Of a DNA stretch of 28,245 nt, positions 1,361 through 22,903 are shown in pieces (the stretch's first letter is position 1; every line of letters starts with the position of its first letter). Origin of the DNA: a virus; the IMG/VR virus record IMGVR_UViG_3300043409_000630, positions 1 to 28,245 of that record. One strand, 5' to 3'. Made by a program: the position numbers and the translations under genes. A model generated the notes under the pieces. It made no database searches, was not told where the DNA came from, and saw only the letters and a list, made by a program, of their open reading frames with translations.

Positions 1361-2392
1361 TTATATTTTTTTCCAACTAACAAATTTCATCTGTGCTCTA
1401 AGACCGGTGAAGGTGTTACTACTTATGATTCTCTCAATTTCGTCCGGTGATATGCCTGACATTACCATCTCATTAATATCTTTCTGTTCAATCGTATCAG
1501 GCCAAATGACGATATCATAACCTAACTTGATTGCATCCTCCATTAACTTCACGATTTCTTTATTGCGAGGTTCATTGTCAAATATCAAAACTTTATTTTC
1601 TGCATCAATTAATTTTGCAGTTTGTATGAGAGCACTATCACCAGATGCAACACAATTAGAGAGGAACATCGAATCAATAGGACCTTCTACAATCTTAACA
1701 AGTTCGTTAGTGTTTACTTTGTCCATGCCATAAATTAACTTGTCTTGCGACTCATTAGTTCTTAGTGTGACATAACGTAATTTATAATCACTATTCTCCA
1801 ATGCACGACCAGACACACCAATGAGTGTATTATACTTGTCATAGAAAGGGATTACAAGCCTTGCATCAGCAGTAATTTCCTTACCATGATTAGGCATAAG
1901 AGCATCACAGAACTTTTTGTAGTTCGGTGTGAACATCAAAGTGTTTCTCATTGTAGACAAAAACCGTCTATTTGTGCAATATAGTGAACAAAAATGTTCA
2001 TCAGAAAGATTGTTCACCCACTCTGCGTGTTCGAAGTTTTTTTCTTTTGCTACTTTATCAAATCGAGGAGAAGGGATATCAAATACAGGTGCCTTGAAGT
2101 TCGAATGGCCAGATTCACCTGATTTGTATCTCTCAAGTACAAACTCTTTATGTAAAGAGGGGTCAACCTGTTTAATCAAGTTGCCTAGATTTGTACCGAC
2201 ACCACAGTTGTGGCAGTTGAAAAAGAGGTTAGTGCCCTTTTGAAACACATAACCTCTTGCTTTGCTTAGATTCTTCTTACTGTCACCGCAAATGGGGCAG
2301 GAGAAGTTCCAAAGGTAATCTTTCTTCTGCTTGAAGTTACGCAAGCGAGAAGAAATTAATTTAATATACTTAGATTCGACAGAAAGTGACAT
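1361..2392 (-). CDS. DNA primase, T4 gp61-like
   Basis: Makes RNA primers for lagging-strand synthesis with the gp41 helicase, which is also encoded here. From ATG 2392 the protein is 343 aa, a normal gp61 length. An N-terminal zinc ribbon is formed by CPIC (C32, C35) and CHNC (C60, C63). A TOPRIM core follows, with VKIVEGPIDS (acidic EGxxD) and VLIFDNEPRN (DxE-type metal ligands), as in DnaG-family primases. An in-frame GTG at 2410 would add six residues, but it lies upstream of the -10 element at 2401-2406 and has no Shine-Dalgarno, so I prefer ATG 2392. That start also lacks a ribosome-binding site, and the predicted transcript begins almost at the ATG. Family assignment is strong; the start is an inference. 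Confidence 0.93.
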   Translation of the reverse strand: MSLSVESKYIKLISSRLRNFKQKKDYLWNFSCPICGDSKKNLSKARGYVFQKGTNLFFNCHNCGVGTNLGNLIKQVDPSLHKEFVLERYKSGESGHSNFKAPVFDIPSPRFDKVAKEKNFEHAEWVNNLSDEHFCSLYCTNRRFLSTMRNTLMFTPNYKKFCDALMPNHGKEITADARLVIPFYDKYNTLIGVSGRALENSDYKLRYVTLRTNESQDKLIYGMDKVNTNELVKIVEGPIDSMFLSNCVASGDSALIQTAKLIDAENKVLIFDNEPRNKEIVKLMEDAIKLGYDIVIWPDTIEQKDINEMVMSGISPDEIERIISSNTFTGLRAQMKFVSWKKI

Positions 2393-2400
2393 AGAATCAT

Positions 2401-2429
2401 AATATAACACATCCGAAGATGCTTGTCAA
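2401..2429 (-). promoter_or_regulatory. sigma70-type promoter of the primase gene
   Basis: On the minus strand TTGACA (2429-2424) is followed by a 17-nt spacer and TATATT (2406-2401), with a TGT triplet making an extended -10. This is one base from the bacterial consensus. It lies in the gap after the upstream gene's stop (2433). The predicted start site, about 2393-2395, is only 1-3 nt before the primase ATG. It fits an early host-polymerase promoter for primase and nrdA. Confidence 0.75.
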
Positions 2430-6705: not shown

Positions 6706-7107
6706 TTATTCTTCTTCGTCTTCCTCCTCGTCAGACATAATTTCGTTTAGACCTTCATCATCTGTCAATTCAGCATAGAAATCATAACGACCATCATCAG
6801 CGAGGTAATATATTAAATAAAGATAAAACTGTTCATCTCCAGACATTGATTCTATATCTAGAACCAACTCATCACCTTCTGGTTCAGCATCATAAAGTGC
6901 AGGCATGTCTAAACCAAAAGACATTAACACTTTACGAATCTTCTGAACACCAGATTCGGGAGATAGAATCAAATCAGTTAACTCATGGTTAAGGTTCTGA
7001 TTAATCTTCTCACGGACTTGTGGGTCCGTAATACTGATTGAATCAGTTACCTTAATCGTTTGACCCATCTCAGTATTGAGTTCGGCCAAATATTGCTTGA
7101 AATTCAT
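6706..7107 (-). CDS. Acidic protein with capsid-targeting-like N-terminus
   Basis: 133 aa, strongly acidic, ending in a run of about ten Asp/Glu residues. The N-terminus MNFKQYLAE resembles the T4 internal-protein capsid-targeting peptide MKTYQEFIAE (Met, aromatic at 3, Q/E at 5, aromatic-aliphatic pair, then AE), including the final [I/L]xE that fits a gp21-type protease site. An acidic protein that enters the prohead core would suit a scaffold or core component, but no named family is recognised. Start ATG 7107 overlaps the preceding TAA. Internal head location is an inference from the N-terminus and late-operon position. Confidence 0.65.
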   Translation of the reverse strand: MNFKQYLAELNTEMGQTIKVTDSISITDPQVREKINQNLNHELTDLILSPESGVQKIRKVLMSFGLDMPALYDAEPEGDELVLDIESMSGDEQFYLYLIYYLADDGRYDFYAELTDDEGLNEIMSDEEEDEEE

Positions 7108-7691
7108 TACTCTGCTGTATCTTGGAAGATTACATCATCGTTTGCAACTCCGCCAGCATCAGCACCCATTGTACCCATTGCGACTAAAACTTCTGATGTT
7201 ACACGACCAACACGACCACCCATTGTGATTGTGATTGACACGTTTGCATTACCAGAAACAGTTCCTGTAGGTGCAGATTCATATAAACCAGGACTATTCA
7301 AAACGATGCTTGTGACCACATTAGAAACTGCATTTACAAAAATTTGAGCATTTGCAGATGTGTTTCCTGTGCCGCCACCAGTAAATGTAATGAAAGCATT
7401 ACCTGCATTACTCTTATTAGTAGCACCAGCAGAGATAGTGGCAACGCCACCCATACCAACTTCACGCAACACCCAACCTCCGTGTGCTGGACGATTTGCG
7501 ATTGAAGCTGTGTTTGCCATCTCGCTTGTATCTACACCAAACACACCTACTGCTTGTCCAGTAATAAATGCGCCTGTAGTTGTATTACCATAAGCTAAAT
7601 TGACGTTGTTTTGGGATTGTGACACATTTAAGTAGTTTGTTACATATTTTGGAGCGCTTGTGTTAGCGTCCGTATTTGACCATAAAGCCAT
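7107..7691 (-). CDS. Virion structural protein, Gly/Ala/Thr-rich beta protein
   Basis: 194 aa, rich in Gly, Ala, Thr, Val and Asn, with almost no lysine, cysteine or membrane segment, and alternating patterns expected of beta structure. It opens with MALWSNTDANTSAPKYV. Short proteins opening with MALWxxxD and containing AHxGWVxRxxGxGGR-like segments are, from memory, annotated as virion structural proteins in marine T4-like phages. Here the matching part is RPAHGGWVLREVGMGG at 67-82. It is the first gene after a late promoter, with a good GGAGA ribosome-binding site, which fits high late expression. Confidence 0.7.
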   Translation of the reverse strand: MALWSNTDANTSAPKYVTNYLNVSQSQNNVNLAYGNTTTGAFITGQAVGVFGVDTSEMANTASIANRPAHGGWVLREVGMGGVATISAGATNKSNAGNAFITFTGGGTGNTSANAQIFVNAVSNVVTSIVLNSPGLYESAPTGTVSGNANVSITITMGGRVGRVTSEVLVAMGTMGADAGGVANDDVIFQDTAE

Positions 7692-7721
7692 TTTTATTCT
7701 CCAGAAAGTTAATTAGTTATC

Positions 7722-7729
7722 TATTTATG
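7722..7729 (-). promoter_or_regulatory. T4-type late promoter (CATAAATA)
   Basis: On the minus strand CATAAATA lies 31 nt before ATG 7691, one base from the T4 late consensus TATAAATA. The predicted start near 7716 gives a 25-nt leader with GGAGA in front of the ATG. It sits right after the TAA of the upstream gene and would drive the operon from the structural protein through the lysis cassette. Confidence 0.65.
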
Positions 7730-9388
7730 TTAATTGTCTGCCTTGACAACAGTACTACCAATGACAGGTTCGGCTTGAAAAGAATTATCTTCTTTTTTCT
7801 TACCCTTTTTCATAATCTCTTTAACAATCTCGGCTTTACGAGATTCTTCAAGGCCTTCTTTAACAGGCATTTTTTGTGCTTGTCTCTTGGCCGCAGCACG
7901 AGCAAGGTCCCTAACACGGGACATTGGACCATGTTTTGCACCTGATTTGTCTGTTACTGTAGATGGTCCAGTTGTGTACGGTCCATCAAATGGTGGTTTG
8001 TCATCTTTATTATCTGTTGCTTCATTGACATGGCCATATTTCTTTTTATACCAGTCAGGCATTCCACTTGTTTTACGGAAATGTCTTACTGTTGCAGAAT
8101 CATTTGCTTGGTCACGATACTTATTTTCAGCAGTAGTATTGTGTGACTTCATTGCTTCAGCAGCTGCATGAGCATCTTTAGCAATATGAACTAATGCCTC
8201 ATCAGACTTTTTGTGATACTCATGTCCTTCTAAAGGATGACGTTGTGATGCACGACCTTCTTGAACAGTTTCTTCATTTTTTTGTAAAAGCATGCCGTGT
8301 TGTTTGTATGCAGTTCTTGCTATTTTTTTCATAACACTTCTACCTTTTACTGAAGGATAATCTTTTTTAGATTCATCATCATATTTCTTTTCAACATTAC
8401 TGTATCTTTGTTGTAGCGTTTTATATGAAGCAACTTCATCCAGACCATTCTCATCAATCTGTTCAACTTCTTCATTCTTTGGTTTTGGTTTCAACAAGGC
8501 TGCACCAGCACGTTCTTCACGTTCACGTTGTTCTTTTGCTCTCTGTAAGGCTTTTGCCATACGAACCGCAGCAGAAGTTGATTCATCAAGTTCACTCATC
8601 ATATAATTAGCAACTGTTGAAATGTAATCTTCTGCAAGAGTAATTTTAGATTGTACCCATTCAGCAATATTAGTATCATCTTTCAACATGTCATGCACTC
8701 GTTGAGCATTACTAATGATACTTTGCAATTGACCACGGGCCATATCACCTTCATAATCATATTCTGTTTTTTCTTTTGCTTCTGTTGTTAATTTTTGTCT
8801 AGCAACAGATTTAGTCAGACCATGTTTCTTAACAAAAGATGTTTTATCAAGTGAGTTCAAATCATTTTTAACATCAGGTTTGACAAGTTCAGATATCTGT
8901 TTGAATGTTTTCAAATTACTTTTTACTTCAGAATCTTCTGATACTGTTTTCCACCCACCGCCTTTTCCTTTGTACCACTTTGCTGCCCAACCATTTGCAT
9001 ATGCGGATGGATAAACATCAAATTTAGAACGGGCTAGTGATTTTGCTCTTGACCACAACTCAGGGTTTGTTGGTTCATTTTTTTCGTTTAGATTTTCCAT
9101 ATTTTCACTTATCTTTCCTTTTCCAAAATTGGAAACATTAATGGGTTCGCCTTTTCTTTCAGGATTCGGATCATGTTTTCTTTTAGCACGAACTGCGGAA
9201 GCTCTTTCTTTTTTAGTGAGAGAGGCTCTTTTCTCAGCCGACATACATTTGGGTTTAGGTTCGCCAGGTTCTCTTGCACAAGGACCAATTGCTTCACCCT
9301 TACTATTAATTCTTTTCCAATCTCCAGATGGGTCAGTTTTACTAAACCATTTACGCAAGTCTTCTTGTAGATTAGAAAACGGCTTCAT
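7730..9388 (-). CDS. Large composite internal-protein candidate (552 aa)
   Basis: Highly charged mosaic protein with no membrane segment. Segments visible: 1-80, with DPSGDWKRI and GPCAREPGEPKPKCMSAEKR, a Cys-containing module common in phage proteins; 107-147, with NPELWSRAKSLARSKF and NGWAAKWYKGKGG, matching the phage domain I know as DUF5872; 218-268, a helical module with QSIISNAQRVHDML and WVQSKITLAEDYI, which recurs in marine phage proteins; 436-455, with RKTSGMPDWYKKKYG. Between modules are [VI]xE[GA] sites (VQEG, VNEA, VKEG) resembling gp21-type prohead protease cuts. The N-terminus MKPFSNLQED is only a weak capsid-targeting match. A packaged, processed head protein is inferred. It starts one base after the preceding stop. 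Confidence 0.65.
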   Translation of the reverse strand: MKPFSNLQEDLRKWFSKTDPSGDWKRINSKGEAIGPCAREPGEPKPKCMSAEKRASLTKKERASAVRAKRKHDPNPERKGEPINVSNFGKGKISENMENLNEKNEPTNPELWSRAKSLARSKFDVYPSAYANGWAAKWYKGKGGGWKTVSEDSEVKSNLKTFKQISELVKPDVKNDLNSLDKTSFVKKHGLTKSVARQKLTTEAKEKTEYDYEGDMARGQLQSIISNAQRVHDMLKDDTNIAEWVQSKITLAEDYISTVANYMMSELDESTSAAVRMAKALQRAKEQREREERAGAALLKPKPKNEEVEQIDENGLDEVASYKTLQQRYSNVEKKYDDESKKDYPSVKGRSVMKKIARTAYKQHGMLLQKNEETVQEGRASQRHPLEGHEYHKKSDEALVHIAKDAHAAAEAMKSHNTTAENKYRDQANDSATVRHFRKTSGMPDWYKKKYGHVNEATDNKDDKPPFDGPYTTGPSTVTDKSGAKHGPMSRVRDLARAAAKRQAQKMPVKEGLEESRKAEIVKEIMKKGKKKEDNSFQAEPVIGSTVVKADN

Positions 9389-9389
9389 C

Positions 9390-10430
9390 TTAGTCTTTCA
9401 TCGCCTGTTTTGTTGCAGCTGCATACATTACATTTTTAGCACGGTCACCGTAACGGTCTTTGAAACCCGCCATACCTTTTTTCATCGATTTAACAATTTC
9501 TTCTTTTTTTGCTTTTTCAGCATCATTCATACGGTCTTCTTCAATAGTAGAAATTTGAACACCGTTAATAGCGTTGATATCAAGTTCTTCTTGTTTCACT
9601 GCTTGAACTGCACCTTTTGCAATTTCAGTATTTCTTTTTTTGCCTTCAGACTTTGCCTTGGCATCTTCTAATTCTTTTGTGAATTGTTCATTGTCTGGTT
9701 CTTCTTTAACTAACATTTCAGATAAAGACTTCAAACCCTTTTCTTGATATAGATTTACCATCTCAGAGAATTTCTTTTTCTTTTTCTCTGCTTCAATCTT
9801 TTTCAATTCAGCATCAGATGGTCCCTTTACATAGTCACTCTCTGGTTTAGAAGCACCATATGAACGACCTTGAACTTTAGTTGAAGGCAAATCAGCCATC
9901 TTAACTTCATCAATTGATTCAATATCTTCTTTCTTCAATTTGTCCTGTTCTCTTTTCTTACGCATTGCACTATACAGTTTGTCCATTTTTTCGGCTTCTT
10001 TTTCATTCTTTCTCATGTCTTTTAGTCTTTCGGCTGCACCTCGCTCATGGCTATTAAATTTGAAACCTTCTGCAACTTCTTCAGTCTTTGGTTTATTCAT
10101 AGCGGCATGTTTACGAACAGCGTGTTCTGGACTATCTGCCCACACATGATGTGGTTCATCATGTTCACCTTTTTCTGGATTATGTTTAACTGCCTTACCA
10201 TTCTTAACAGCAAAACGGTCTTGATAACCAGTATCGTCTTCTTTAACAACTCCACCTTTTTTACCACGAAGCTTCTTAAAGTCATCAGATGTTAGTTCAT
10301 CTTTCTCTGGCTCATGCACATCCAACTGTTGTTGGTTTGGATGAAGTTTTTCGGTAACTGGTTGTTGACCATACATGATTTTTGCCGCAATATCGGCTAC
10401 ATCACGGATTTGTTTATTATCTGAGTACAT
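9390..10430 (-). CDS. Charged, helical internal-protein candidate (346 aa)
   Basis: Rich in Lys, Glu and Asp, mostly helical or disordered, no cysteine and no membrane segment. The C-terminal end has KKGMAGFKDRYGDRAKNVM then YAAATKQAMK, a short module that recurs in phage head-associated proteins. A TEEVAEGFKFNSHERG segment near 115-130 includes a [VI]xE|G site like a prohead protease cut. There is no catalytic motif. AGGAG lies before ATG 10430. Its place between genes with capsid-targeting-like N-termini suggests an internal head protein as well, though its own N-terminus (MYSDNKQIRD) does not match the targeting pattern. Confidence 0.6.
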   Translation of the reverse strand: MYSDNKQIRDVADIAAKIMYGQQPVTEKLHPNQQQLDVHEPEKDELTSDDFKKLRGKKGGVVKEDDTGYQDRFAVKNGKAVKHNPEKGEHDEPHHVWADSPEHAVRKHAAMNKPKTEEVAEGFKFNSHERGAAERLKDMRKNEKEAEKMDKLYSAMRKKREQDKLKKEDIESIDEVKMADLPSTKVQGRSYGASKPESDYVKGPSDAELKKIEAEKKKKKFSEMVNLYQEKGLKSLSEMLVKEEPDNEQFTKELEDAKAKSEGKKRNTEIAKGAVQAVKQEELDINAINGVQISTIEEDRMNDAEKAKKEEIVKSMKKGMAGFKDRYGDRAKNVMYAAATKQAMKD

Positions 10431-10456
10431 TAGTTTTCTCCTAGTTTAATTAATTT

Positions 10457-10942
10457 TTAGCAATTCCAACGGCGTAATGCTTTATTGATTGGTGAATCAG
10501 GGTCTCTTGCATTTTCAGGATTAGTCAATCTCTTTTTCATGCCACCCATTCTACTGCAAAAAGATTTTCTTCTGTTTGCATCTTTTGAACCTGCTTTTAG
10601 TTTAGATGGGTCTTTTGTTACCGCAGTCTTTAACTTTGAACCTGGATTTTCTCTACGATAAACATCAACTGCCTTCTGTGAAAGACCATCTGTTTTATCG
10701 GCTTTGTTGACTTTACTCCAGTCTTCATTCACATCTTCATTTTTCTTTTTACCGGCACAATGCGCCTTTTGGCTAAATCCTTTTGGATTATTGCAGTCAA
10801 TACTACTTTTATATTTTTGACTCCAACCTTCTTTCATTTCTTCTTCTTTGACACAAGAACCTGGAGAATATGCTTTTTTACCTGGTACAGATTTGTAGCC
10901 AGGCCAACATCTTTCTGCGATAAATGACTTAAATGATTTCAT
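10457..10942 (-). CDS. Cys-containing basic protein with capsid-targeting-like N-terminus
   Basis: 161 aa. The N-terminus MKSFKSFIAE agrees with the T4 capsid-targeting peptide MKTYQEFIAE at six of ten positions, including the final FIAE. Two modules follow: WSQKYKSSIDCNNPKGFSQ then HCAGKKKN (52-68), and GLSQKAVDVYRRENPGSKL then CSRMGGMKKRL with a final RRWNC (about 90-161). Both recur, from memory, in many phage proteins, and the second resembles the family I know as DUF6321. Conserved cysteines suggest metal binding or disulfides. The start overlaps the stop of the 904-aa gene by 4 nt (ATGA). Packaging into the head is inferred. Confidence 0.65.
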   Translation of the reverse strand: MKSFKSFIAERCWPGYKSVPGKKAYSPGSCVKEEEMKEGWSQKYKSSIDCNNPKGFSQKAHCAGKKKNEDVNEDWSKVNKADKTDGLSQKAVDVYRRENPGSKLKTAVTKDPSKLKAGSKDANRRKSFCSRMGGMKKRLTNPENARDPDSPINKALRRWNC

Positions 10943-13653
10943 GAACTTATAGACCTATTTGCTTTGAATGTTTTAAGGTTTATACCTTGTTTTTTCAATT
11001 CTAATTCATTATTATCAGAATTAGATGTTGCATCTTCACCACCAGCACCAATTGTTTCAATGATGCCGGCACGACCACGTTTCTTCAAACTAATCTTTTC
11101 ACCAGATGGTCGACCTAAATTTTCACCCGAAGCCGCCATTGATAAACCAGGCTCAATGCCCTTATCTATGCTTTCCTGTTGTTTCTCACGGGACTCTTTT
11201 TGCTTGGCACGGATTTGACTGATGGTGATTTTGGTTTTGCTGGGACTTTCTTCACCGTTGCCTTGCTCTGTACTGGCAATTCCGATTGTTTGGGCAGCTG
11301 GGGTGAAGTTATAGTTTCCACTTTCGGCTCCAACATTATTGATTCTTCCTTCGGTACAGAAACTGGTTCTTGCCTCTTTGAATTCGTTAAAAAACTTTTG
11401 ATTAGTCTCAACATCTTCGTTCTCCTTTATTTTTATTACATAACCTTTTGGGTGTTTCATTACTTCACCACCGTGCAAATGAGATTCTTTTGCGGCAGAA
11501 CGGCGAAGTAAGAATATCTTAGCTGATCCATCTTTTTTACGCAACAACTTGATTTTCTTTTCTTCAAAAATTATTTCTTCTTCAGAAAATAAAGATTCAA
11601 ATTCTTCATTGACTTTCTTCATTTTTTTCCTTGGAACATCACGAATCAGACTATGTTTACCATCATGATGCCATCCTGGAAAATATTTAGAAGCTGATTT
11701 GAAGAAACGCTGATACATTGCTTCTTGTCGTTCGCCTGCACCTTCCATGATAATTTCATCAATCTCTGTGTTGTATTCAGTAATGAATTTACGAACGGTA
11801 TTGATTACTGTAGAATAAATTAGAAATTGATTTTTATTTTTAGCAGTTAAGTCGGTGTCCATTTCATCACCAAAACTATAATCATCTTGTTCTTCTTTTA
11901 CACCAAAGGCCACATTTACTGCGTTCCAGTTTTGTTTCTTACCAAAAGAAGGAGGACCTTTCACGGTGAATTTTATTATAAATGTATCTTTACCAGACTT
12001 AAACTTGAAAAGTTTATAGGTAGTTTGTTTGCGGTCATTGACATTATACATGCCTCTCGGTTCTGTAGTCTTGAGGCTTGTATTTGCTAATTCTTCCAAA
12101 GACTCAAATTCTTCATTAACCTTCTTCATTGAACTTCCTGAGGTTGGAACATTAGGTTCTTTCTGTGGTTCTTTTTCAACCTCAACTAGTTTATCGTGTA
12201 CAGAACGATGCGTTACTGTACCATTTTGACCATATCTACCAAAACCATAATACTTCAGACCCATCTTACGAGCTTCTTCTGCGGCACCTGAATCTGGATG
12301 TGGTGTTTGTTCTGCGCCATCTTTTGGTATCGGTGATGTATCTTTCTTTTGTAACTCCATTGCAACCCATGCATCAGCAACTGAATTTTTAGGTGGTGTA
12401 GATACAAATTCTTTTATTCTTGTGAACATCTGAAGCATTTCGTCTTTTTTAGCCTTGACTACTTCAGGTGGTGCATTTCTTAAATCTTCAGAGTTATCAA
12501 ACTCCATGTAATTATCACCAAACATCTTTGCAAATTCTGGTCTACCTGCTTGTACACCATCCCATTTTTCTTTGCGAATGTTTTCTGGTACTGTACGACC
12601 GCCACGTTGGCCACGGTCTATATTTCTTTGTTTAGAAACTTCATCGGCAGTATTAACTAGAACCATTGAAGATTCATAACCAACACTCTCTAATTCTTTT
12701 TTAATCTTTGCAATCTTTTCAACATCATCACCAGTGCCATTGATAATCAAACCATTACGACCTAGAATTGCAAGTCGTTGACGTAACTCTGTAATATTTT
12801 TTGCTTTGCCACGGACAATGTTACGCACTTCTTCTTCTGATGCAGGCATAGTCTTATCAAGACCTTTTTTATCCATCAAAAACTCAAGTGCCTTATCTGA
12901 ATTCATTTCGGTCATTCCATGACCTGCAAGTGTATTGTCAAGCACATAGTCTTTACCAGAACCAGGACCACCTGCTAGAAATACTGCTTTGAAAATAGCC
13001 TTGTCGTGTACACCTTCGAACAAAAGAGATTCAAATTCTTCATTGATACTCTCTTTGATTTGCATACCTTTACGAACATCATTATACATTTCTTTTGCAT
13101 GATGTTCTGGTACATGTTTAGGAATACCTTTTTTGAATTCTTTGAAATTACCAGAAGATGCATGGCCACGCATTTTAGATGCAGACATACCGGCAGTACC
13201 TTCAGCATCAGGATCTCTTTGACCTGCACTATGTACTGTTATCTTTTTGAAATTGAATAATGCACCCTCATGTGTACCATTATACTGTGCAAGTTTCTTT
13301 TTGTATTCTGCAACACGGTCAGAACCTGCAACCATGTGTAAATGTGTTACACCTTTTTTGTGTAACTCAGCTGCATGAGAAAGAAATGTGGGTGACTCTT
13401 TACTGGATGTAGAGAGATTTGTATCTGGAAAGAATCGTTTTGCGTGTTTAAGTTTATCAGCAGAAGATAATGGATTTTTGTCTTTATCTTGTGTATGTGA
13501 TAGAACTACGCTGTGAGTGCCACCAACAGATTTGGCAACATCTTTGACTTTGTTTACGAGAACTTCATGACCTGTAGTTGGAGGTGACATGCGGCCAAAC
13601 GCCATGACATGGTGAACCTCTTTATTTTCGCTAATAAATTCTCTAAATTTCAT
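10939..13653 (-). CDS. 904-aa polyprotein: nucleotidyltransferase + P-loop kinase + conserved domains
   Basis: N-terminal MKFREFISE resembles the T4 capsid-targeting peptide and ends in ISE, a gp21-type site. Domain 1 (12-200) is a cytidylyl/NMN-adenylyltransferase fold: MAFGRMSPPTTGHEVL with TTGH in place of HxGH, and GMSASKMR as the ISxxxxR-type loop. Domain 2 (220-420) has Walker A AGGPGSGKD and resembles zeta-toxin or polynucleotide-kinase P-loop proteins. Domain 3 (525-675) is a conserved phage domain of unknown role. The tail (690-904) is charged. Domains are separated by NEEFESL at 204-210, 513-519 and 682-688; the first continues LLFEG, again a cleavage-type site. SD GGCGGAG precedes ATG 13653. 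Substrates are unknown; the NadR-like pairing is suggestive only. Confidence 0.78.
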   Translation of the reverse strand: MKFREFISENKEVHHVMAFGRMSPPTTGHEVLVNKVKDVAKSVGGTHSVVLSHTQDKDKNPLSSADKLKHAKRFFPDTNLSTSSKESPTFLSHAAELHKKGVTHLHMVAGSDRVAEYKKKLAQYNGTHEGALFNFKKITVHSAGQRDPDAEGTAGMSASKMRGHASSGNFKEFKKGIPKHVPEHHAKEMYNDVRKGMQIKESINEEFESLLFEGVHDKAIFKAVFLAGGPGSGKDYVLDNTLAGHGMTEMNSDKALEFLMDKKGLDKTMPASEEEVRNIVRGKAKNITELRQRLAILGRNGLIINGTGDDVEKIAKIKKELESVGYESSMVLVNTADEVSKQRNIDRGQRGGRTVPENIRKEKWDGVQAGRPEFAKMFGDNYMEFDNSEDLRNAPPEVVKAKKDEMLQMFTRIKEFVSTPPKNSVADAWVAMELQKKDTSPIPKDGAEQTPHPDSGAAEEARKMGLKYYGFGRYGQNGTVTHRSVHDKLVEVEKEPQKEPNVPTSGSSMKKVNEEFESLEELANTSLKTTEPRGMYNVNDRKQTTYKLFKFKSGKDTFIIKFTVKGPPSFGKKQNWNAVNVAFGVKEEQDDYSFGDEMDTDLTAKNKNQFLIYSTVINTVRKFITEYNTEIDEIIMEGAGERQEAMYQRFFKSASKYFPGWHHDGKHSLIRDVPRKKMKKVNEEFESLFSEEEIIFEEKKIKLLRKKDGSAKIFLLRRSAAKESHLHGGEVMKHPKGYVIKIKENEDVETNQKFFNEFKEARTSFCTEGRINNVGAESGNYNFTPAAQTIGIASTEQGNGEESPSKTKITISQIRAKQKESREKQQESIDKGIEPGLSMAASGENLGRPSGEKISLKKRGRAGIIETIGAGGEDATSNSDNNELELKKQGINLKTFKANRSISS
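11166..11414 (-). CDS. Possible overlapping ORF, Lys/Pro/Ser-rich 82-aa protein
   Basis: A second minus-strand frame inside the tail of the 904-aa gene. It starts at ATG 11414 with a perfect AAAGGAG seven nt upstream. The product is very basic and Pro/Ser-rich, with KSPSVKSVPSKKSPV near its end, like SPxKK-type DNA-binding tails. The main frame is also intact here, and such composition can arise by chance in a shadow frame, so this is kept only because of the strong ribosome-binding site. No homology can be claimed. Confidence 0.22.
   Translation of the reverse strand: MLRLIKSFLTNSKRQEPVSVPKEESIMLEPKVETITSPQLPKQSELPVQSKATVKKVPAKPKSPSVKSVPSKKSPVRNNRKA
11591..11623 (-). repeat. NEEFESL linker repeat, copy 3
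   Basis: Encodes the KVNEEFESLF linker at residues 680-689 of the 904-aa protein. It matches the copy at 12098-12130 at 30 of 33 bases. The copies are in frame and lie at domain borders. Confidence 0.75.
12098..12130 (-). repeat. NEEFESL linker repeat, copy 2
   Basis: Encodes KKVNEEFESLE at residues 510-520, between the kinase-like domain and the third domain. The three differences from copy 3 are all transitions. Confidence 0.75.
13025..13046 (-). repeat. NEEFESL linker repeat, copy 1
   Basis: Encodes INEEFESL at residues 203-210, between the nucleotidyltransferase and kinase-like domains. It shares a 17-nt core exactly with copy 3. It is followed by LLFEG, which fits an LxE|G prohead-protease site. 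Confidence 0.7.
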
Positions 13654-13697: not shown

Positions 13698-14333
13698 TTA
13701 GGCTTTATGGTGCATCCATGAGACATGATCCACTTCATAATCATCACCAAATATCTCTTTTACCGCAGTATCTACACCATTTGTTGGTGGATCATTTGGT
13801 GTAAAATCATGGCCACCAATCCAACCACCTTTTTTGACCTTTGGTAGCCAAGTAAGAATGTCAGCCTTGACAAATTCATATTCATGTGACGCATCAATAA
13901 AAACAAAATCTAATGATTCATCTTCATATTGTTTTGATGCTTCAATACTATCCATTTTGACAGGATTATAATAACCAGCTGCAGGTTTCATATTTTCTTG
14001 GAACACATTAAATAATGTATCATTGATTGCATTTTCATCCTCATATTCTCCACCTTTTTGGTGTTCTGGACTTCCACGCCATGTATCAACAGCATCAAAC
14101 TTAATATTCTTTTTACTGTTTGCAATCTCAACGGCCATGTAAGCTGTTGATTTACCATACCAAGAACCGACTTCAACAAAATGTGAACCATCACCAAACG
14201 TATTAACCATATTGTTATAAGGACTTTCAAAATCAAAATGGCCACTAATGTTGGTATAGAAATGTTCCAAAACCAAATCTGGATCGTTTATTAGATTAAG
14301 TGTATTAGTTCTTGTATCAATTGAGACTAACAT
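13698..14333 (-). CDS. SAM-dependent methyltransferase (Methyltransf_24 type)
   Basis: 211 aa, full length for the family. Motif I is FVEVGSWYGKS (52-62) for SAM binding. FDAVDTWRGSPEHQ carries the acidic motif II and the W/G segment typical of Methyltransf_24 proteins, which are often found in glycan gene clusters. LDFVFIDASHEYEFVKADI and KKGGWIGGHDF are the matching motif IV and V regions. It is the last gene of the eight-gene glycan block, starting 3 nt after the stop of another methyltransferase gene with GGAG in front. The likely role is O-methylation of a sugar or glycan; the substrate is unknown. Confidence 0.88.
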   Translation of the reverse strand: MLVSIDTRTNTLNLINDPDLVLEHFYTNISGHFDFESPYNNMVNTFGDGSHFVEVGSWYGKSTAYMAVEIANSKKNIKFDAVDTWRGSPEHQKGGEYEDENAINDTLFNVFQENMKPAAGYYNPVKMDSIEASKQYEDESLDFVFIDASHEYEFVKADILTWLPKVKKGGWIGGHDFTPNDPPTNGVDTAVKEIFGDDYEVDHVSWMHHKA

Positions 14334-14336
14334 ATT

Positions 14337-14966
14337 TTACTCCGCTACTATAAATGCGTTGCCATAAGGATGCGGTACTGTCCAGTTTTCTTTTAGATGA
14401 CCAAATTCGTAATCAAAGTATTTGATTTTGAAACCAGCCTCAACTAAAGTTGTCAACCACCATTCTTCCGGTTCCTTTGTCACATGGGTAATATCCATCT
14501 CATATTCACGGATACGATAACGTGTGCCGTCACCCAATGGAACAGCAACAAAAATTGTTTTGCATCGTCTACGCAATGCGGTCAGTACTGAAGGAATTTC
14601 TTCTTTCGGTATATGCTCCAGTACATCCTTTGCAATAATTAAGTCCCAGCCACCTTTGATATCTTCAGCAGTATCAACAACAGTTAGGTACTCTTTAACC
14701 TTCGGGTGGCAATTAGTCACGGCATATTCCGACACATCAACGCCATGTGCTTCTTTACCTAAAAGTCTCAAGGCATGTACCATGAAACCCTTGGCACATC
14801 CAAAATCTAATACTGTAGTAAATGGAATATTGTTGATGATTGAAGAAGCCTCACGAATACTTCTTTCAGGCATCCAACGATAGTTTTCGTAAGCACTTAC
14901 ACGATGGCGAACACCATCTTCAAAATACTTCTCATCAAATACTTTTTTAATATCATGCGAATTCAT
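14337..14966 (-). CDS. SAM-dependent methyltransferase (class I, UbiE/Methyltransf_23 type)
   Basis: 209 aa. Motif I VLDFGCAKGFMVHAL binds SAM, GVDVSEYAV provides the acidic residue that holds the ribose, and LIIAKDVLEHIPKEE is the typical post-motif II DxLEH segment. The C-terminal part (GDGTRYRIREYEMDITHVTK) is characteristic of sugar or small-molecule methyltransferases in polysaccharide clusters. The ATG lies 14 nt inside the end of the radical SAM gene, so expression is coupled. Substrate not determinable. Confidence 0.88.
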   Translation of the reverse strand: MNSHDIKKVFDEKYFEDGVRHRVSAYENYRWMPERSIREASSIINNIPFTTVLDFGCAKGFMVHALRLLGKEAHGVDVSEYAVTNCHPKVKEYLTVVDTAEDIKGGWDLIIAKDVLEHIPKEEIPSVLTALRRRCKTIFVAVPLGDGTRYRIREYEMDITHVTKEPEEWWLTTLVEAGFKIKYFDYEFGHLKENWTVPHPYGNAFIVAE

Positions 14967-16068
14967 TATGTCTTGTCTCCGTTACTACATCGTCAATTAA
15001 TTCATTTTGATATGCATATTTGCAGAATGAACAAGCATGATGACGGCGACTTACGCCTGCACCACCAACTTGTGAATCATAAAATGCGGTGATACCTTCA
15101 ATATCACAAATCTTAAATTCATCATTTACTGCATAGTTATTCTCAGGTGCCAATTCAGCAGATGGGCACACATACACATTACCATCTGTAAACACACAAG
15201 GTTTAACCATGTGCATATAACAGTTATCATTTCTTCGTACACCTTTGAAATTGAAGTCTGACAAGAAAGCATATTTTAACTTGCCATTCTTTTCTTCGTG
15301 TATGGCAATCAACTCACCAATTTTAAGAATGTCTTTCTGTACTTCATCTACAGATTTAATTGCATTGAAGGCGATACGACATGGGATTTTCTTTTCTTCA
15401 ACCCATGCCAACATCTTCATAAAGTTTTCTTCTTTGTATGAATTTGATGCAAGTTTCTTGGCCTTTGTATCAGTCCATTCACCTGTAATATTTGGATTAG
15501 TAGAAGTCTCTGTTGCACCATCCCAAACATATGCGGCTGAGATTTCAATATCTAAACCTTCAAACACTTCAAGATGATACTCATATGGTTTTTTTTCATC
15601 CCACGAATACATGCCAAGGCGAACCCATGACAACATGTGCCAGTTTTTAATTTTCTTTAGGCGAGAACCATTCGTACAAATACCAATTTTTAGTCCACGA
15701 TTGTATGCGTGTTCAATCGCCTTGTCTAACTGTGGGTGCAATGTTGGTTCGCCACCGCCTGTAAACTCCATACCTAGAACACCAAGGTCTGCGAATTGGT
15801 CAATTGCAGATTTCATTTGGTCTAGTGTCAACATATCTTTCATTGCACGATTGGCAAAACAACAGAAAGAACAGGTTAGATTACACGGGTTTGCAGGTGA
15901 CATGTGAAACATTACAGGTTTTGGCCTTTCACCTTTTTGAATCAACTGTAGTCTATCCATGTGTTTCAATAACTTTACATGGTTACTGGTGTAACTACGG
16001 CCTTGTACCTTATCTTCAGGTATTGTTTGTTTCTTTTTCATTATCGCATTAGCATTAATTATTTCCAT
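14953..16068 (-). CDS. Radical SAM enzyme with SPASM-like C-terminal cluster site
   Basis: 371 aa. NPCNLTCSFCCF supplies the CX3CX2C motif (C62, C66, C69) for the [4Fe-4S] cluster that cleaves SAM. FTGGGEPTLHP at 102-112 is the GGE motif binding the SAM amino group, and ICTNGSRL follows. The C-terminal half has further cysteines (C283, C291, C301, C321, C346, C349) arranged as in SPASM/twitch auxiliary cluster domains. In glycan clusters such enzymes do epimerisation, dehydration or C-methylation of sugars, or modify a peptide; which applies here is open. AAAGGA lies 6 nt before the ATG, which overlaps the preceding TAA. Confidence 0.9.
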   Translation of the reverse strand: MEIINANAIMKKKQTIPEDKVQGRSYTSNHVKLLKHMDRLQLIQKGERPKPVMFHMSPANPCNLTCSFCCFANRAMKDMLTLDQMKSAIDQFADLGVLGMEFTGGGEPTLHPQLDKAIEHAYNRGLKIGICTNGSRLKKIKNWHMLSWVRLGMYSWDEKKPYEYHLEVFEGLDIEISAAYVWDGATETSTNPNITGEWTDTKAKKLASNSYKEENFMKMLAWVEEKKIPCRIAFNAIKSVDEVQKDILKIGELIAIHEEKNGKLKYAFLSDFNFKGVRRNDNCYMHMVKPCVFTDGNVYVCPSAELAPENNYAVNDEFKICDIEGITAFYDSQVGGAGVSRRHHACSFCKYAYQNELIDDVVTETRHNEFA

Positions 16069-16853
16069 TATATTCCTTTAATTATATTATCAAATATAGC
16101 CTTCATATGAGTTCTATCGTACATATGAATAAACGGGATGTAATCATTCAACAACTTCCCATTGTGTGTTTGTAACTTTGAAGGTAAAGTCATATTTGGA
16201 GTATAGTTGAATGTCATTATAGATTTATCATCAAATTCAATTGGGTCTATTCCAAATTGAGCATGAGACAATGCAAAGATAATTTCATCACACATACCAC
16301 CACGATACCAACGCTTACAATTCAACTCATCATATCTATATGCAACAGAATCACAGAAATTGAAAAACTCTGTTGCAGTCTTCCTAAAATATAAAAATCC
16401 ACCATGTGTATGTGGCACTTGTTTACCAAAGGCCGCAGACACTTCATGTATAGTAGCCCAATGCCATTGTGGATCAATTTTGTGTCCCATCATAGCAACA
16501 GGTTCTTCTCTTTTACTTAGGAATTCCCATAAATCATTAGCATTATACTGACATAATACGTCCGTGTCAAGAAAAATATTCTCATCATATTTAGCATAAT
16601 GAATCAAATTGATTTTGGGATATGTTCCGAACTTCTCAAATGCTTGTACACACAAGTTGAAGAAGTGGCTTACTGGTTGAAATTCTATTATATCGGTAAA
16701 TAAGTTTAATGATTTGGCGTACTCAATATCTTGTGCAAACACTAATACAGATATTGGTTTATCATCACCCTGTTTTCTAATAGTAGCAGCCAATAAGGCC
16801 GCTTCATTAATGTAATTTTGCCCTAAAGCAATTAGTATATAACCTTTACTCAT
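16068..16853 (-). CDS. Glycosyltransferase, GT-A fold (GT8-like)
   Basis: 261 aa. The start GYILIALGQNYINEAALL resembles the nucleotide-sugar binding N-terminus of GT-A enzymes. NIFLDTDVLCQYN carries the DxD metal/nucleotide motif (D96, D98) in the hydrophobic strand context seen in family GT8. HTHGGFLYF and KRWYRGGMCDEIIFALSH look like the acceptor loop. No membrane segment, so a cytoplasmic enzyme. Its start overlaps the upstream gene by 4 nt. Donor and acceptor are unknown. The DNA encoding the DTD motif also forms a perfect consensus sigma70 promoter (separate entry). Confidence 0.8.
   Translation of the reverse strand: MSKGYILIALGQNYINEAALLAATIRKQGDDKPISVLVFAQDIEYAKSLNLFTDIIEFQPVSHFFNLCVQAFEKFGTYPKINLIHYAKYDENIFLDTDVLCQYNANDLWEFLSKREEPVAMMGHKIDPQWHWATIHEVSAAFGKQVPHTHGGFLYFRKTATEFFNFCDSVAYRYDELNCKRWYRGGMCDEIIFALSHAQFGIDPIEFDDKSIMTFNYTPNMTLPSKLQTHNGKLLNDYIPFIHMYDRTHMKAIFDNIIKGI
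16542..16570 (-). promoter_or_regulatory. Perfect consensus sigma70 promoter sequence inside a coding region
   Basis: On the minus strand TTGACA (16570-16565), a 17-nt spacer and TATAAT (16547-16542), all twelve bases matching consensus. It lies within the glycosyltransferase gene over the codons for LDTDVLCQYN. A start near 16535 would give a transcript covering the radical SAM and two methyltransferase genes. Use in vivo is unknown, and partial coding constraint may explain the match. Confidence 0.5.
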
Positions 16854-17584
16854 ACTGTATTGAAAGAAAACCCAAGTACTTTTTGGTCTTCTTTATGTGC
16901 CTCAACTTCTTCATTATAATATCCTTTCATAAATTTAGGATAAACATTGTTCATGATATCATACATTTCTGCAAATGCAGCTGACTTATCATAATATGGA
17001 TTGTGTTTTGGTACATGATGCATACTTACCTCATGCATTACTGCTGTCTTAGCTTTCAATATAGAAGACATAACGATATCAAATCCCCAACCACTCTTTA
17101 CTTCATGGTACTTCCAAAACTCAACAAGAGCAGGCATCAATGAAGCATGAACAAATGGTCCCATACCTTCGACAAAATTGGTTAATGCAAATTTCATACT
17201 CTGGTCTTGAAATGTAACTGCATGTTGTTTTTCAGAATCATCATTCAATGATAGTTGAAATAATTTAATATCTTTTTCTTTAGCAATATTTATTGCACGA
17301 TTAATACTTTGAATATCGGTCACCAAATCATCATCCAAGAATCCAATATATTCATAACCACTATAATCAAACGTATCAAGGAACTGTTTGGCTATTTCCC
17401 ATTTCCAACCAGTACCTTTGAATAGATGGTCATATGAATTCGATTCCATATCAAAATCTTTATATTGATACACAACAGTTTCATACATTCTTGTATCTTT
17501 AGTATATCTCCAATGATTTTCTGGATCATAATCTCTATGAAAACTCATTGGTACTCCGGCTGCACAAAATATTAAACTTTTCAT
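16850..17584 (-). CDS. DUF707-like putative glycosyltransferase
   Basis: 244 aa. The core YEYIGFLDDDLVTDIQSINR (79-98) contains D84-D86, a DDD variant of the GT-A DxD motif, in the context I associate with DUF707 proteins. FVEGMGPFVHASLMPALVE and SGWGFDIVMSS resemble the acceptor-side segments of that family, and HHVPKHNPYY supplies a late His. No signal peptide. The ribosome-binding site before ATG 17584 is weak. The gene follows the cytidylyltransferase gene by 9 nt. A sugar-transfer role fits the neighbours; linkage and substrate are unknown. Confidence 0.72.
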   Translation of the reverse strand: MKSLIFCAAGVPMSFHRDYDPENHWRYTKDTRMYETVVYQYKDFDMESNSYDHLFKGTGWKWEIAKQFLDTFDYSGYEYIGFLDDDLVTDIQSINRAINIAKEKDIKLFQLSLNDDSEKQHAVTFQDQSMKFALTNFVEGMGPFVHASLMPALVEFWKYHEVKSGWGFDIVMSSILKAKTAVMHEVSMHHVPKHNPYYDKSAAFAEMYDIMNNVYPKFMKGYYNEEVEAHKEDQKVLGFSFNTV

Positions 17585-17593
17585 TTTATAATC

Positions 17594-18106
17594 TCATTTA
17601 TAAGGAGGAACAAAATTCATATCACCATATTTTTTAAGTAATTCTGGTGAGTGTGGTAAATCAGTTTGTATTGGTTTTTCTTCCAATCGTTCTTTCTCTA
17701 AAAGATAAACACGATTCCTTAATTCAGTTGAACTAAATGTGTGCTGTCTTTTATGATAGTGTAATTCAATACCATTCTCTAAACAGTACTGTTTGCCAGT
17801 AAAATCTCTACTCAAATATTCTTCACTAAGGAATCGAATATGCATTGTTTGTGTTTTGATTAAATTCAACAAACTCGCTTCTGTATCATATAGAAGAATT
17901 TCATCGACATACTTACAGGCTTGCAATTGAACATATCGTTCATATACTGATTGACTTGGTTTGTTTTTAATACCTGGTCTATCAATAGATGGGTCAACTT
18001 GTAATGCGACTTTCATATAATCACACAATTCTTTTTCCATCTTCAGCATTGTTACATGACCAGCATGAAACAAATCAAATGAAGAGCAATTAAATCCTAT
18101 TTTCAT
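17594..18106 (-). CDS. Cytidylyltransferase-family nucleotidyltransferase
   Basis: From ATG 18106 the protein is 170 aa. An upstream in-frame start at 18190 would add 28 residues overlapping the previous gene, and the fold begins right at the later Met, so I use 18106. SSFDLFHAGHVTML holds the HxGH nucleotide-binding motif (H14, H17). HTFSSTELRNR is the [IF]SSTxxR loop, and DEILLYD lies between. These are hallmarks of the TagD/RfaE-C type enzymes that activate glycerol phosphate, ethanolamine phosphate or heptose with CTP/ATP. In this cluster it probably makes an activated building block for the glycosyltransferases. It follows the preceding stop by one base. Confidence 0.85.
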   Translation of the reverse strand: MKIGFNCSSFDLFHAGHVTMLKMEKELCDYMKVALQVDPSIDRPGIKNKPSQSVYERYVQLQACKYVDEILLYDTEASLLNLIKTQTMHIRFLSEEYLSRDFTGKQYCLENGIELHYHKRQHTFSSTELRNRVYLLEKERLEEKPIQTDLPHSPELLKKYGDMNFVPPYK

Positions 18107-18107
18107 A

Positions 18108-18965
18108 TTATTTTGTACCGTATTTTTTATCAATGATTTCTTTCCACTTCGGAACTCTATTGTATTGATGTAACAAAACATATCGTTCACCCTTACTATT
18201 TACCGCATATTCACCATCAAATTGTGGCTCAGGACACAATAAGTTTGGTCTAAAAGAATCTATTTTATTAGGGTCAACTGTTGTTCCGCATTGGCAAGCC
18301 CAATTCGAATCGTGGTCATTAAACTTAGTAATGGATTTATATGGTTCTAATGACAACATCAAATTAACACCTGCTTGGTCTGGCATAGGTTCTTTTGAAT
18401 ATTGTATTGCAAGAAATACTGCCATTGAGAAGTCAATAAAAGTTGTGTAATCTCCTGCCATTGTTCCTGCATTGAATATTGGCATATCTTGCATATATGA
18501 ATGAATTACAGGACCAAATGTACTGTTCATATTCTCATTACCCCAAGCCTCATCTTTATATTTGAGACCTTCACCACCACAATTTAGTTTCTTATCGCCT
18601 AGATTTTTCTCTAACCAATCTGAAGGATTTGATTGAAAAACTACATCAACACAATCGGTTGAAATTATATATCGTATATCAGTAAACTTTTTAAGGAAAT
18701 ACCAATTAACGAAATGTCTAGCCATAGGAACTTGATGACCAAAATTCTCCATGTATAAGAATCCATCATCATTTGCGTTTCTTTTGTTACTTGCAAGAAT
18801 AACTTCAACACCATTATCTGTCAAATTTTTAATTGTGTAGTCTGATACATTAAAACATATCATAACTTTTCGGCCAGTAAACCCACAAGAATTTAGAGAG
18901 TTTACCCAATTCTCTAATCTGTGATATTCATAAGACGAGACTGCACTAATAACTAAATCTTGCAT
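18108..18965 (-). CDS. Putative glycosyltransferase (GT-A-like, phage type)
   Basis: 285 aa. ISAVSSYEYHRLENWVNSL at the N-terminus looks like a nucleotide-sugar site, and IISTDCVDVVFQSNP at 100-114 has a D104xxD107 pair in the place of a DxD motif. PIFNAGTMAGDYTTFIDF and MPDQAGVNLMLS (DQ motif) match the acceptor and catalytic segments seen in GT8- and DUF-type sugar transferases. RYVLLHQYNR near the end is a typical closing His segment. It overlaps the epimerase gene by 13 nt. The glycosyltransferase call rests on these motifs and on context; the sugar is unknown. Confidence 0.7.
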   Translation of the reverse strand: MQDLVISAVSSYEYHRLENWVNSLNSCGFTGRKVMICFNVSDYTIKNLTDNGVEVILASNKRNANDDGFLYMENFGHQVPMARHFVNWYFLKKFTDIRYIISTDCVDVVFQSNPSDWLEKNLGDKKLNCGGEGLKYKDEAWGNENMNSTFGPVIHSYMQDMPIFNAGTMAGDYTTFIDFSMAVFLAIQYSKEPMPDQAGVNLMLSLEPYKSITKFNDHDSNWACQCGTTVDPNKIDSFRPNLLCPEPQFDGEYAVNSKGERYVLLHQYNRVPKWKEIIDKKYGTK

Positions 18966-19747
18966 AAATTTTCTCCAATCATTTTCAATTCATTCATATA
19001 ATTTTTTTTAATTTCTATCTGAAATTCGGACTGTAATTTGTTATTATCTAACATGAATTGGTCTGTTATTTTATCACCATATTCAAAACTACCAGAACCA
19101 TAACCTTCAATCAAATTTTTAGCCACATTACCTATTTTTAAACCATAATTACTACTTAAATTATATGTGCCTGTTTTCTTCGAATCACATATAATTTTCA
19201 ACACCCTAGAAACTTCATCCACAAGAATAAAATCTCTTTTGATTTGTTCACTCAATTCAAACACTATTTTATCATTTTCCTTTAATTGTGTCAAGCAAAA
19301 TCCTAAAAAAGAATTTCTTCCATGTTCATTGCCGAAAACATTTGAAGCTCTCAGAATGGTATAGTTGCCAAAATTACTTTGTATTTTATTTTCGGTAATA
19401 TATTTGTTTTCTGAGTAGTTATCAATAGGTTTAATTTCAGATGTTTCGGTATAGGTAATCAAATCATCCGATTGGCCATAAACCTTACGAGTACTTAACA
19501 TAACAAAATGACATGCATTTTCATGTGACTTTTTGGCAACAATAAAATCTATATTGTTTTGTTCTTCGTATTTTTTTGTTCTAAAATCTGGTGATATGGA
19601 ACAATTAAAAACTGTACCATAGGATGAAAAATCAGTTGTGCTGATTTCTTTGTGAGAGATTAAATCTATGTTGCTTGACTGGTTAGAAAAGTTTTGGCCA
19701 ATAAAACTATTCTTACCTACTACAAGTATTTTATTCACATTATTCAT
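18953..19747 (-). CDS. NAD(P)-dependent sugar epimerase/reductase (extended SDR)
   Basis: 264 aa, slightly short for the family. The Rossmann start ILVVGKNSFIGQN (7-19) is a variant of GxxGxxG. LSTRKVYGQSDD (84-95) gives the catalytic Ser/Thr, and YSENK (111-115) is the YxxxK catalytic pair. ILRASNVFGNEHGR is the SDR segment following the active site. The length and the late part resemble RmlD-like dTDP-4-dehydrorhamnose reductases and related epimerases. It would supply a nucleotide sugar to the transferases downstream. First gene of the glycan block; no clear promoter in front. Confidence 0.85.
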   Translation of the reverse strand: MNNVNKILVVGKNSFIGQNFSNQSSNIDLISHKEISTTDFSSYGTVFNCSISPDFRTKKYEEQNNIDFIVAKKSHENACHFVMLSTRKVYGQSDDLITYTETSEIKPIDNYSENKYITENKIQSNFGNYTILRASNVFGNEHGRNSFLGFCLTQLKENDKIVFELSEQIKRDFILVDEVSRVLKIICDSKKTGTYNLSSNYGLKIGNVAKNLIEGYGSGSFEYGDKITDQFMLDNNKLQSEFQIEIKKNYMNELKMIGENLCKI

Positions 19748-20411: not shown

Positions 20412-20984
20412 ATGAATATTTATACAATATATAAAGCCATAAACAAAATTAACGGTAAAGTATACATTGGTTTTGATTCTAATTGGCCACACAGAAAAAA
20501 TTCTCATAAATCATATCACAAAAAACAAGACACAAAATTTTATAGAGCCATAAAAAAATATGGTTGGGACAATTTTGAATGGAATGTAATATATCAATCT
20601 ACCGATAGAGATTACACTAAAGATATTATGGAAAATTATTTTATTTTAGAACATAATTCTTTTAATGATGGTTATAATTCAACTTTAGGTGGTGATGGAA
20701 CTTTTGGCATTTCTAAAAAAGGATCAAAAGTTCCATATAATCATAATGGGTGGATTGGTAAAAAACATACAGAAGAAACCAGAAAAAAAATGTCTGAAAG
20801 TATGAAAGGTAAAAAACATCCTAATTTGAAACAAAGTGGATCAAAAAATCCTTATGCTAAAAAAATAAAAACTCCTTTTGGTATCTTTAGTAGTATTAAG
20901 GAAGCATCAGAAGAAACAAAAATAGCATATCATAAAATTTGCAAATTGCTTAAAACAAATCCAAATTGGTCATATTTATTTTGA
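20412..20984 (+). CDS. GIY-YIG homing endonuclease with NUMOD domains
   Basis: 190 aa. The GIY-YIG nuclease core spans 1-92: IYTIYKA and KVYIGF form the two tyrosine strands, HRKNSH has the conserved Arg (R28) and His, and E74 in ENYFI is the metal-binding glutamate. GKKHTEETRKKMSESMKGKK (116-135) is a NUMOD3 helical DNA-binding repeat, and FGIFSSIKEASEETKIAYHK (156-175) a NUMOD1-like helix-turn-helix. It is a free-standing mobile gene with its own late promoter, on the strand opposite its neighbours. Its last 9 bases overlap the 3' end of the convergent DUF6267 gene. The sequence is more AT-rich than its neighbours. It probably cuts intronless relatives near this site. Confidence 0.93.
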   Translation: MNIYTIYKAINKINGKVYIGFDSNWPHRKNSHKSYHKKQDTKFYRAIKKYGWDNFEWNVIYQSTDRDYTKDIMENYFILEHNSFNDGYNSTLGGDGTFGISKKGSKVPYNHNGWIGKKHTEETRKKMSESMKGKKHPNLKQSGSKNPYAKKIKTPFGIFSSIKEASEETKIAYHKICKLLKTNPNWSYLF

Positions 20985-22160: not shown

Positions 22161-22242
22161 GATGTAAATTTTTGCCGCTTTTTTCTTCAGCTAAAATTAC
22201 ATCTTGAGAGCCCTCCATGGTAAAGTTTTTAAAATTAAACAT
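22153..22242 (-). pseudogene. 29-aa leader ORF, frame-shifted 5' end of the DUF6267 gene
   Basis: ATG 22242 to TAA 22155-22153. The peptide begins MFNFKNFTME and ends KSGKNLHLE. Reading on after a +1 shift at the TAA gives NEHLEDEILN, the start of the DUF6267 protein, so the two frames look like one broken gene. GKNxHLEHxED is what I would expect at this point in intact relatives (from memory). It overlaps the last bases of the homing endonuclease gene. It may still be translated and help re-initiation at TTG 22160. Confidence 0.5.
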
Positions 22243-22898: not shown

Positions 22899-22903
22899 TT
22901 ATA
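22896..22903 (-). promoter_or_regulatory. T4 late promoter (TATAAATA) for the minus-strand homing endonuclease
   Basis: An exact TATAAATA on the minus strand. The predicted start near 22890 leaves a leader of about 14 nt that begins at the AGGAG site before ATG 22876. The element lies inside the relic of the interrupted gene. Confidence 0.75.

Follow-up and report, generated by a model that had tools for sequence, protein, structure and literature searches.

Known systems and the present locus

The internal proteins IPI, IPII and IPIII of phage T4 start with a short peptide that carries aromatic residues at positions 4 and 7 and ends in [I/L]xE. Residues 4 and 7 of the T4 peptide govern targeting and residues 8 and 10 processing; T4 packs and delivers Alt as well as foreign enzymes fused to this tag, which suffices for a foreign protein, and the general idea that T4-like phages can vary their cargo by means of a targeting sequence has already been published (PMC9026906). 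Here we describe a related arrangement in a 28,245-nucleotide stretch of viral DNA (IMG/VR record IMGVR_UViG_3300043409_000630; hereafter the window), a 28-kb fragment of a T4-like phage with kinship to the Kyanoviridae. Between the genes for helicase gp41 and primase gp61, a cluster whose genes are mostly unnamed encodes several proteins with T4-like N-terminal tags, including a 904-amino acid (aa) protein in which tag-like repeats recur between the domains. The order gp41, cluster, gp61 is the same in Methylophilales phage Melnitz, Pelagibacter phage HTVC008M, Syn9 and S-SM1.

The resemblance to the T4 internal proteins lies in the T4-like nature of the phage, in the gene for the prohead protease gp21 found in its relatives and in the peptides themselves: MKSFKSFIAE has the same register as T4 MKTYQEFIAE (F4, F7, I8, E10). 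Three of the four tags, MKFREFISE, MNFKQYLAE and MNFTQYLTE, are however one residue shorter (F3, F/Y6, I/L7, E9), cleavage of the tags is predicted only, and whereas the T4 internal proteins are small and basic, the tagged cluster proteins include enzymes and one long protein of several domains with internal tag-like repeats. The T4 ADP-ribosyltransferase Alt is likewise a head-packaged, injected enzyme and is cut by gp21 at its ends (PMC9026906), but its start, MELITELFDE, falls outside the motif in a comparison limited to the N-terminus.

Similarities also extend to the virion NMNAT/cytidylyltransferases of the cyanophages S-SM1, S-SCSM1, S-CBWM1 and S-CREM2, which are homologous to the nucleotidyltransferase of the window, lie in a syntenic cluster in S-SM1 and S-SCSM1 and carry the tag in S-SM1, S-SCSM1 and S-CREM2. 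The cyanophage enzymes are encoded by a separate gene of about 290–410 aa, in contrast to the window version, which is fused to a kinase and further units. The head ejection proteins of SPN3US and phiKZ are also cargo processed by a prohead protease, with several sites per propeptide and injected enzymes (vRNAP); in the part of that report available to us, the propeptides are mostly longer than 100 residues, the site logo is different and no domain-by-domain polyprotein is described (PMC5694885). Finally, NadR, which combines NMN adenylyltransferase and ribosylnicotinamide kinase, shares the order of a nucleotidyltransferase followed by a P-loop kinase and gives the best Foldseek match (6gyf, E 2e-7), but the TM-score across both domains is low and the kinase is equally close to adenylate kinase, polynucleotide kinase and zeta toxin.

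N-terminal tags in the gp41–gp61 cluster

The flanking genes and the tagged proteins with an uninterrupted gene are the following:

25221–26612, minus strand: helicase gp41
10939–13653, minus strand: 904-aa protein; Pfam Zeta_toxin 6.4e-12, PHROG cytidyltransferase 7e-65
13627–13653, minus strand: MKFREFISE tag of the 904-aa protein, identified by motif specificity; short helix at residues 2–8 in the AlphaFold model
10457–10942, minus strand: 161-aa protein with an MKSFKSFIAE tag, an RCWPGY unit and DUF6321 (Pfam 5.9e-13)
7730–9388, minus strand: 552-aa protein, MKPFSNLQE followed by DLRKWFSKTDP, a mobile mini-domain behind a degenerate tag
6706–7107, minus strand: 133-aa protein with tag MNFKQYLAE; orthologues retain M[KNR]F..[FY][LI].E
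1361–2410, minus strand: primase gp61

The original prediction, which proposed capsid targeting from four T4-like N-termini, is borne out at this level: all four are found at their positions on the minus strand and all end in [I/L]xE. They are short N-terminal peptides with aromatic residues at both targeting positions, and the positions conserved among the cluster tags are those important for targeting or cleavage in T4. The start of the 552-aa reading frame (MKPFSNLQE, start 9388) and the internal repeats of the 904-aa protein had been overlooked.

The specificity of the tags was assessed with the expression M[KNRQS].{0,2}[FYL]..[FYL][ILVMF].E. Among 1876 distinct open reading frames (ORFs) from related loci it matches 200 first methionines, a number inflated by the choice of these loci via two tagged families, against 6 of 11642 internal methionines, which are free of this bias; since first-methionine matches are in such excess, a chance origin of the tags is unlikely. 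Across seven whole T4-like genomes, with 1434 ORFs, it matches 16 N-termini, as opposed to 3 of 6511 internal methionines. T4 itself yields IPII and IPIII only (2 of 253 ORFs); IPI, which begins with MKTFKEF, is missed because its ITE sits at residue 19. Four cluster genes match in each of two near-complete relatives (G002 and G004), and one each in Syn9 and Melnitz, while tag-like starts are present on most of the genes g126–g131 of S-CRM01. At the DNA level, patterns for the tag have 28 matches in eleven records and 1 when read backwards. The tagged families are unrelated to each other, comprising DUF6267, the nucleotidyltransferase, a HAD-like phosphatase, DUF6321, the 133-aa family and a SAM lyase; the phosphatase-type start (FDIDETLF) belongs to a further tagged protein of the relatives.

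Tagged proteins in virions of relatives

Enzymes in cyanophage virions have been reported earlier (PMC3037559, PMC9602691, PMC10665884), so that packaged enzymes as such are not new, and the novelty originally claimed for a multi-enzyme cargo is to that extent reduced. The earlier papers left undecided whether such enzymes are cargo or contaminants, and a tag that predicts virion content supplies a mechanism as well as a rapid test at the genome level. For S-CREM2, the published list of virion proteins has 52 entries. The motif is found in six S-CREM2 proteins, gp6 (a SAM lyase, Pfam 2.3e-19), gp13, gp14 (protein-kinase-like), gp136, gp154 (cytidylyltransferase) and gp175 (55 aa), and all except gp175 are virion-detected (5/6; hypergeometric p=0.003; p=1e-4 when compared with non-structural ORFs no shorter than 60 aa). 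An earlier, narrower expression matched gp6, gp14 and gp154, all of them in virions. The accessible text of the S-CREM2 study names no targeting peptide. Tagged cytidyltransferase/NMNAT proteins are present in the published proteomes of S-CREM2, S-SM1 and S-SCSM1, the latter two represented by gp190 (MKKFSAFLNEAER), reported in S-SM1 virions, and by the S-SCSM1 NMNAT (MKSFLQFLKEAAES), annotated as a virion protein; of genes 89–97 in the S-SCSM1 record, nine in all, seven are marked as virion proteins. The capsid-targeting reading thus has good support: applied to T4 the motif selects IPII and IPIII and nothing else, and applied to S-CREM2 it selects proteins detected in virions.

S-CREM2 gp12 (L005:7704–10313) was not counted as a motif protein, its tag-like LRFASFMAE starting only at residue 17. 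This virion protein is annotated as Cas9, a doubtful name; it has no Pfam match and shares a mini-domain with gp14.

The gp21 gene is present, as Peptidase_S77, in 10 of 11 related records. The major capsid protein of related phages keeps [LI]xE at the T4 gp23 cleavage position, which suggests that the specificity of gp21 is probably conserved.

Domain organization of the 904-aa protein

The 904-aa protein consists of the tag, an HxGH nucleotidyltransferase (residues about 11–198), a P-loop kinase (about 219–434), a mini-domain (455–492) and variable C-terminal units. The two enzyme domains of the original prediction are real, as judged by Pfam, PHROG and fold matches (NadR, NadD and PPAT; adenylate and polynucleotide kinase), and both are confident in the AlphaFold model. 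A profile of the protein compared with the sequences of solved structures gave no match up to E 0.1. The nucleotidyltransferase has TxGH and SASKMR motifs, with G27, H28, S156 and R161 invariant in 33 orthologues, and its fold is Rossmann-like, with Z-scores of up to 14.6 to PPAT and about 12.5 to NadD/NMNAT. The kinase belongs to the Zeta-toxin/AAA_33 P-loop family (Zeta_toxin 45.8 bits, cut-off 22.3); its Walker A motif, GGPGSGKD, ends in D rather than S/T, and its activity is a prediction. A role in NAD/nucleotide salvage and one in nucleic-acid end repair, early in infection, both fit these domains, and the cargo enzymes would perhaps act against host defence.

The mini-domain, GLxYxGFGxYxxxxGxVTHRS, recurs in gp12 and gp14 of L005 and in gp184 of L004; its bearers, from different phages, include several proteins that are tagged or were detected in virions.

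Internal tag-like repeats and exchangeable units

In the 904-aa protein and 35 distinct orthologues, repeats resembling xNEEFExFLxE are located at about residue 207, before the kinase, and at about residue 520, preceding the exchangeable C-terminal units. In the window they are:

13015–13044, minus strand: internal site 1, NEEFESLLFE then G, at the nucleotidyltransferase/kinase junction; pLDDT under 50 at residues 200–214
12091–12117, minus strand: internal repeat 2, NEEFESLEE then L, in the low-confidence stretch 494–552
11581–11610, minus strand: internal site 3, NEEFESLFSE then E

In the AlphaFold model the repeats coincide with or adjoin linkers of low confidence that contain short helices. 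The form F..[FLMIY][LIFM].E has 55 internal matches in the protein and its orthologues, compared with 4.4 in shuffles and 6 in reversed sequences, although the counts lose weight in that the orthologues are related and not independent.

The end of the repeat is closely associated with unit boundaries. At a background frequency of 0.023 per position, [LIVFM]xE immediately precedes the kinase unit in 55 of 55 contexts, and where the kinase has unrelated upstream sequence it does so in 11 of 11, including a separate HTVC008M gene (MIPFILKE then G). It is found directly upstream of the DLRKWF mini-domain in 13 of 15 contexts whose upstream sequences are unrelated, and of RCWPGY in 6 of 10; in the remainder an E stands before G, GG or AG. 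The RCWPGY unit stands behind the N-terminal tag in the window and behind an internal SFKSFINE of a longer ORF in another locus (L102). The occurrence of [LIVFM]xE before mobile mini-domains in the majority of unrelated contexts is as expected of gp21 sites. Targeting- and cleavage-like repeats between domains go beyond the cargo originally envisaged, and no earlier report of the targeting sequence on these enzymes, or of the internal sites, was found in the open-access literature.

Proposed mechanism and alternative explanations

In the light of these findings the gp41–gp61 cluster is probably a capsid cargo island. Peptides that fit M[KN](x)F-x-x-[FY]-[IL]-x-E would act like the T4 capsid-targeting sequence by binding the prohead core, gp21 would cut after the E of the tag, and the mature enzymes would stay in the head until they are ejected with the DNA. 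The 904-aa protein would be a cargo polyprotein, divided by its repeats into nucleotidyltransferase, kinase, mini-domain and exchangeable C-terminal domains. Probably gp21 also cuts the internal repeats in the prohead, in which case a single tag would bring in several enzymes at once and the nucleotidyltransferase, the kinase and the accessory domains, once released, would be injected together. From the combination of tagged enzymes and tag repeats between the polyprotein domains, the phage probably injects an enzyme set with its DNA. We consider it likely that the tag drives packaging of the cluster proteins, whereas for cleavage of the 904-aa protein at its internal sites the balance of the evidence is only slightly favourable. 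To the complete reading, a capsid-borne multi-enzyme polyprotein with one-tag loading, internal gp21 cuts and joint injection, its signature doubling as a joint for shuffling mini-domains between phages, we assign a probability of roughly 0.55.

Several observations weigh against this reading. The motif was defined after the four peptides had been seen, was widened once after a first look at S-CREM2 and was tuned by eye; the whole-genome search gave zero strict matches in HTVC008M, and DUF6267 of Syn9 and S-SM1 lacks the tag. The internal form also matches unrelated proteins, for example the helicase. The virion-marked S-SCSM1 cluster proteins 89, 90, 92 and 93 lack a strict tag, which is therefore not necessary for virion detection, and the virion evidence is from homologues in relatives. 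The gp21 gene is absent from the window, itself a fragment.

The N-terminal peptides might be true targeting signals while the internal repeats are uncut flexible linkers or core-binding helices, the 904-aa protein being injected whole. T4 does pack and deliver Alt and tag-fused foreign enzymes (PMC9026906), the repeats are short helices in low-confidence linkers, and repeat 2 of the window (FESLEE then L) deviates from F..[FLMIY][LIFM].E. We nevertheless regard this explanation as rather unlikely, as what is conserved where the repeat meets the next domain, in unrelated contexts, is precisely [LIVFM]xE, and the kinase unit starts at the same point as the separate HTVC008M gene. The tags could also be amphipathic starts with another purpose, such as transient scaffold or membrane contact, and their detection in virions could reflect co-purified abundant late proteins; co-purification of enzymes is named as possible by the S-CREM2 authors in the accessible text, and it counts against the cargo reading too. 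Detection was repeated in the independent proteomes of S-SM1, S-SCSM1 and S-CREM2, it is concentrated on tagged proteins in S-CREM2, and the motif matches experimentally tested T4 residues, which makes such starts improbable. A mere similarity through shared ancestry of a few genes and K/E-rich composition, with no common signal, appears very improbable: the cluster proteins are indeed rich in lysine and glutamate and some families share mini-domains, but the tags occur on unrelated families, matches are far fewer in shuffled and reversed sequences as well as at internal methionines (6/11642), and the rest of the T4 proteome does not show the motif at equal frequency.

If the internal sites are cut, as the polyprotein reading supposes, T4-like phages of fresh and sea water would deliver several enzymes per gene at infection, before phage gene expression, at the very moment when host defences that deplete NAD or cleave RNA would act. 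They would then also be natural examples for engineered T4 protein delivery.

The split DUF6267 gene

The fourth N-terminus of the original prediction, MNFTQYLTE, does not open a separate protein but is the detached 5′ end of a DUF6267 gene:

22899–22976, minus strand: tag exon MNFTQYLTESKKEGANLNTLKMNLL*, cut off from its DUF6267 gene; a 25-codon ORF opened by MNFTQYLTE
22235–22894, minus strand: GIY-YIG homing endonuclease splitting the gene; Pfam GIY-YIG 2.5e-6, NUMOD3 1.5e-6
22153–22242, minus strand: alternative 5′ ORF MFNFKNFTMEGSQDVILAEEKSGKNLHLE*, in a different frame from the DUF6267 body; 11 distinct copies keep it intact
20976–22160, minus strand: DUF6267 body; Pfam DUF6267 3.7e-107, ligase-type motifs KWDG, EG and K

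The DUF6267 gene is intact in most of 80 relatives and opened by the same kind of tag peptide, intact orthologues beginning like MNFTQFLTEAKKEGANLHLEHLEDE. A homing-endonuclease element or its remnant parts the tag from the body in the window and at least 10 other contigs. The element leaves the alternative 5′ ORF intact and, ahead of the body, a 7-nt insertion that is conserved. Since the tag opens the intact gene in relatives and is separated from it by the element here, the supposed orphan is the 5′ end of a broken gene; it does not add a fourth protein to the cargo. The GIY-YIG-split gene is found at 22153–22976 (minus strand) and in L009, L029, L037, L052, L060, L104, L261, L267 and L268. 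At the split loci the alternative 5′ ORF has a T4 IPI-like format, for example MYKFKDFTMEGQQDVILSE then SKEGKNLHLE, followed by an invariant CTTGAGTAATGAACAC, and the body is open in the +1 frame, which could be explained by TTG re-initiation, a programmed frameshift or an endonuclease-resistant site. A self-splicing intron was considered and rejected, Rfam giving no match at the gathering threshold and only chance-level matches by E-value. A second GIY-YIG-like ORF, recognized by eye, overlaps the 3′ end of the DUF6267 gene on the opposite strand (20412–20984, plus strand).

The DUF6267 protein contains ligase motifs I (KxDG), IV (EG) and V (K), with K45, D47, G48, E360, G361 and K374 invariant in 43 sequences. 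In fold comparisons RNA ligases lead with Z-scores of 5–7, below the level clear of chance, and a profile compared with the sequences of solved structures gave chance-level matches only. The ligase reading rests on the motifs and the VIA-align rows, because Foldseek gave no match at E under 1.

Other features of the window

T4-type late promoters (ATAAATA) are not in excess in the window, with 9 matches and 12 expected. The remaining features are:

9390–10430, minus strand: 346-aa cluster protein without a clear tag; weak PHROG match
7107–7691, minus strand: 194-aa protein with N-terminus MALW..., by eye similar to an S-SCSM1 virion protein annotated as tail fiber
13698–19747, minus strand: apparent sugar/small-molecule enzyme island between the DUF6267 and 904-aa genes
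24109–25224, minus strand: 371-aa protein adjoining the helicase gene; Pfam DruA 7.6e-10 and a PHROG of unknown function

The enzyme island, read by eye, includes methyltransferases, radical-SAM-like proteins, glycosyltransferases, a second HxGH cytidylyltransferase and an epimerase-like protein; Melnitz and HTVC008M carry little at this position.

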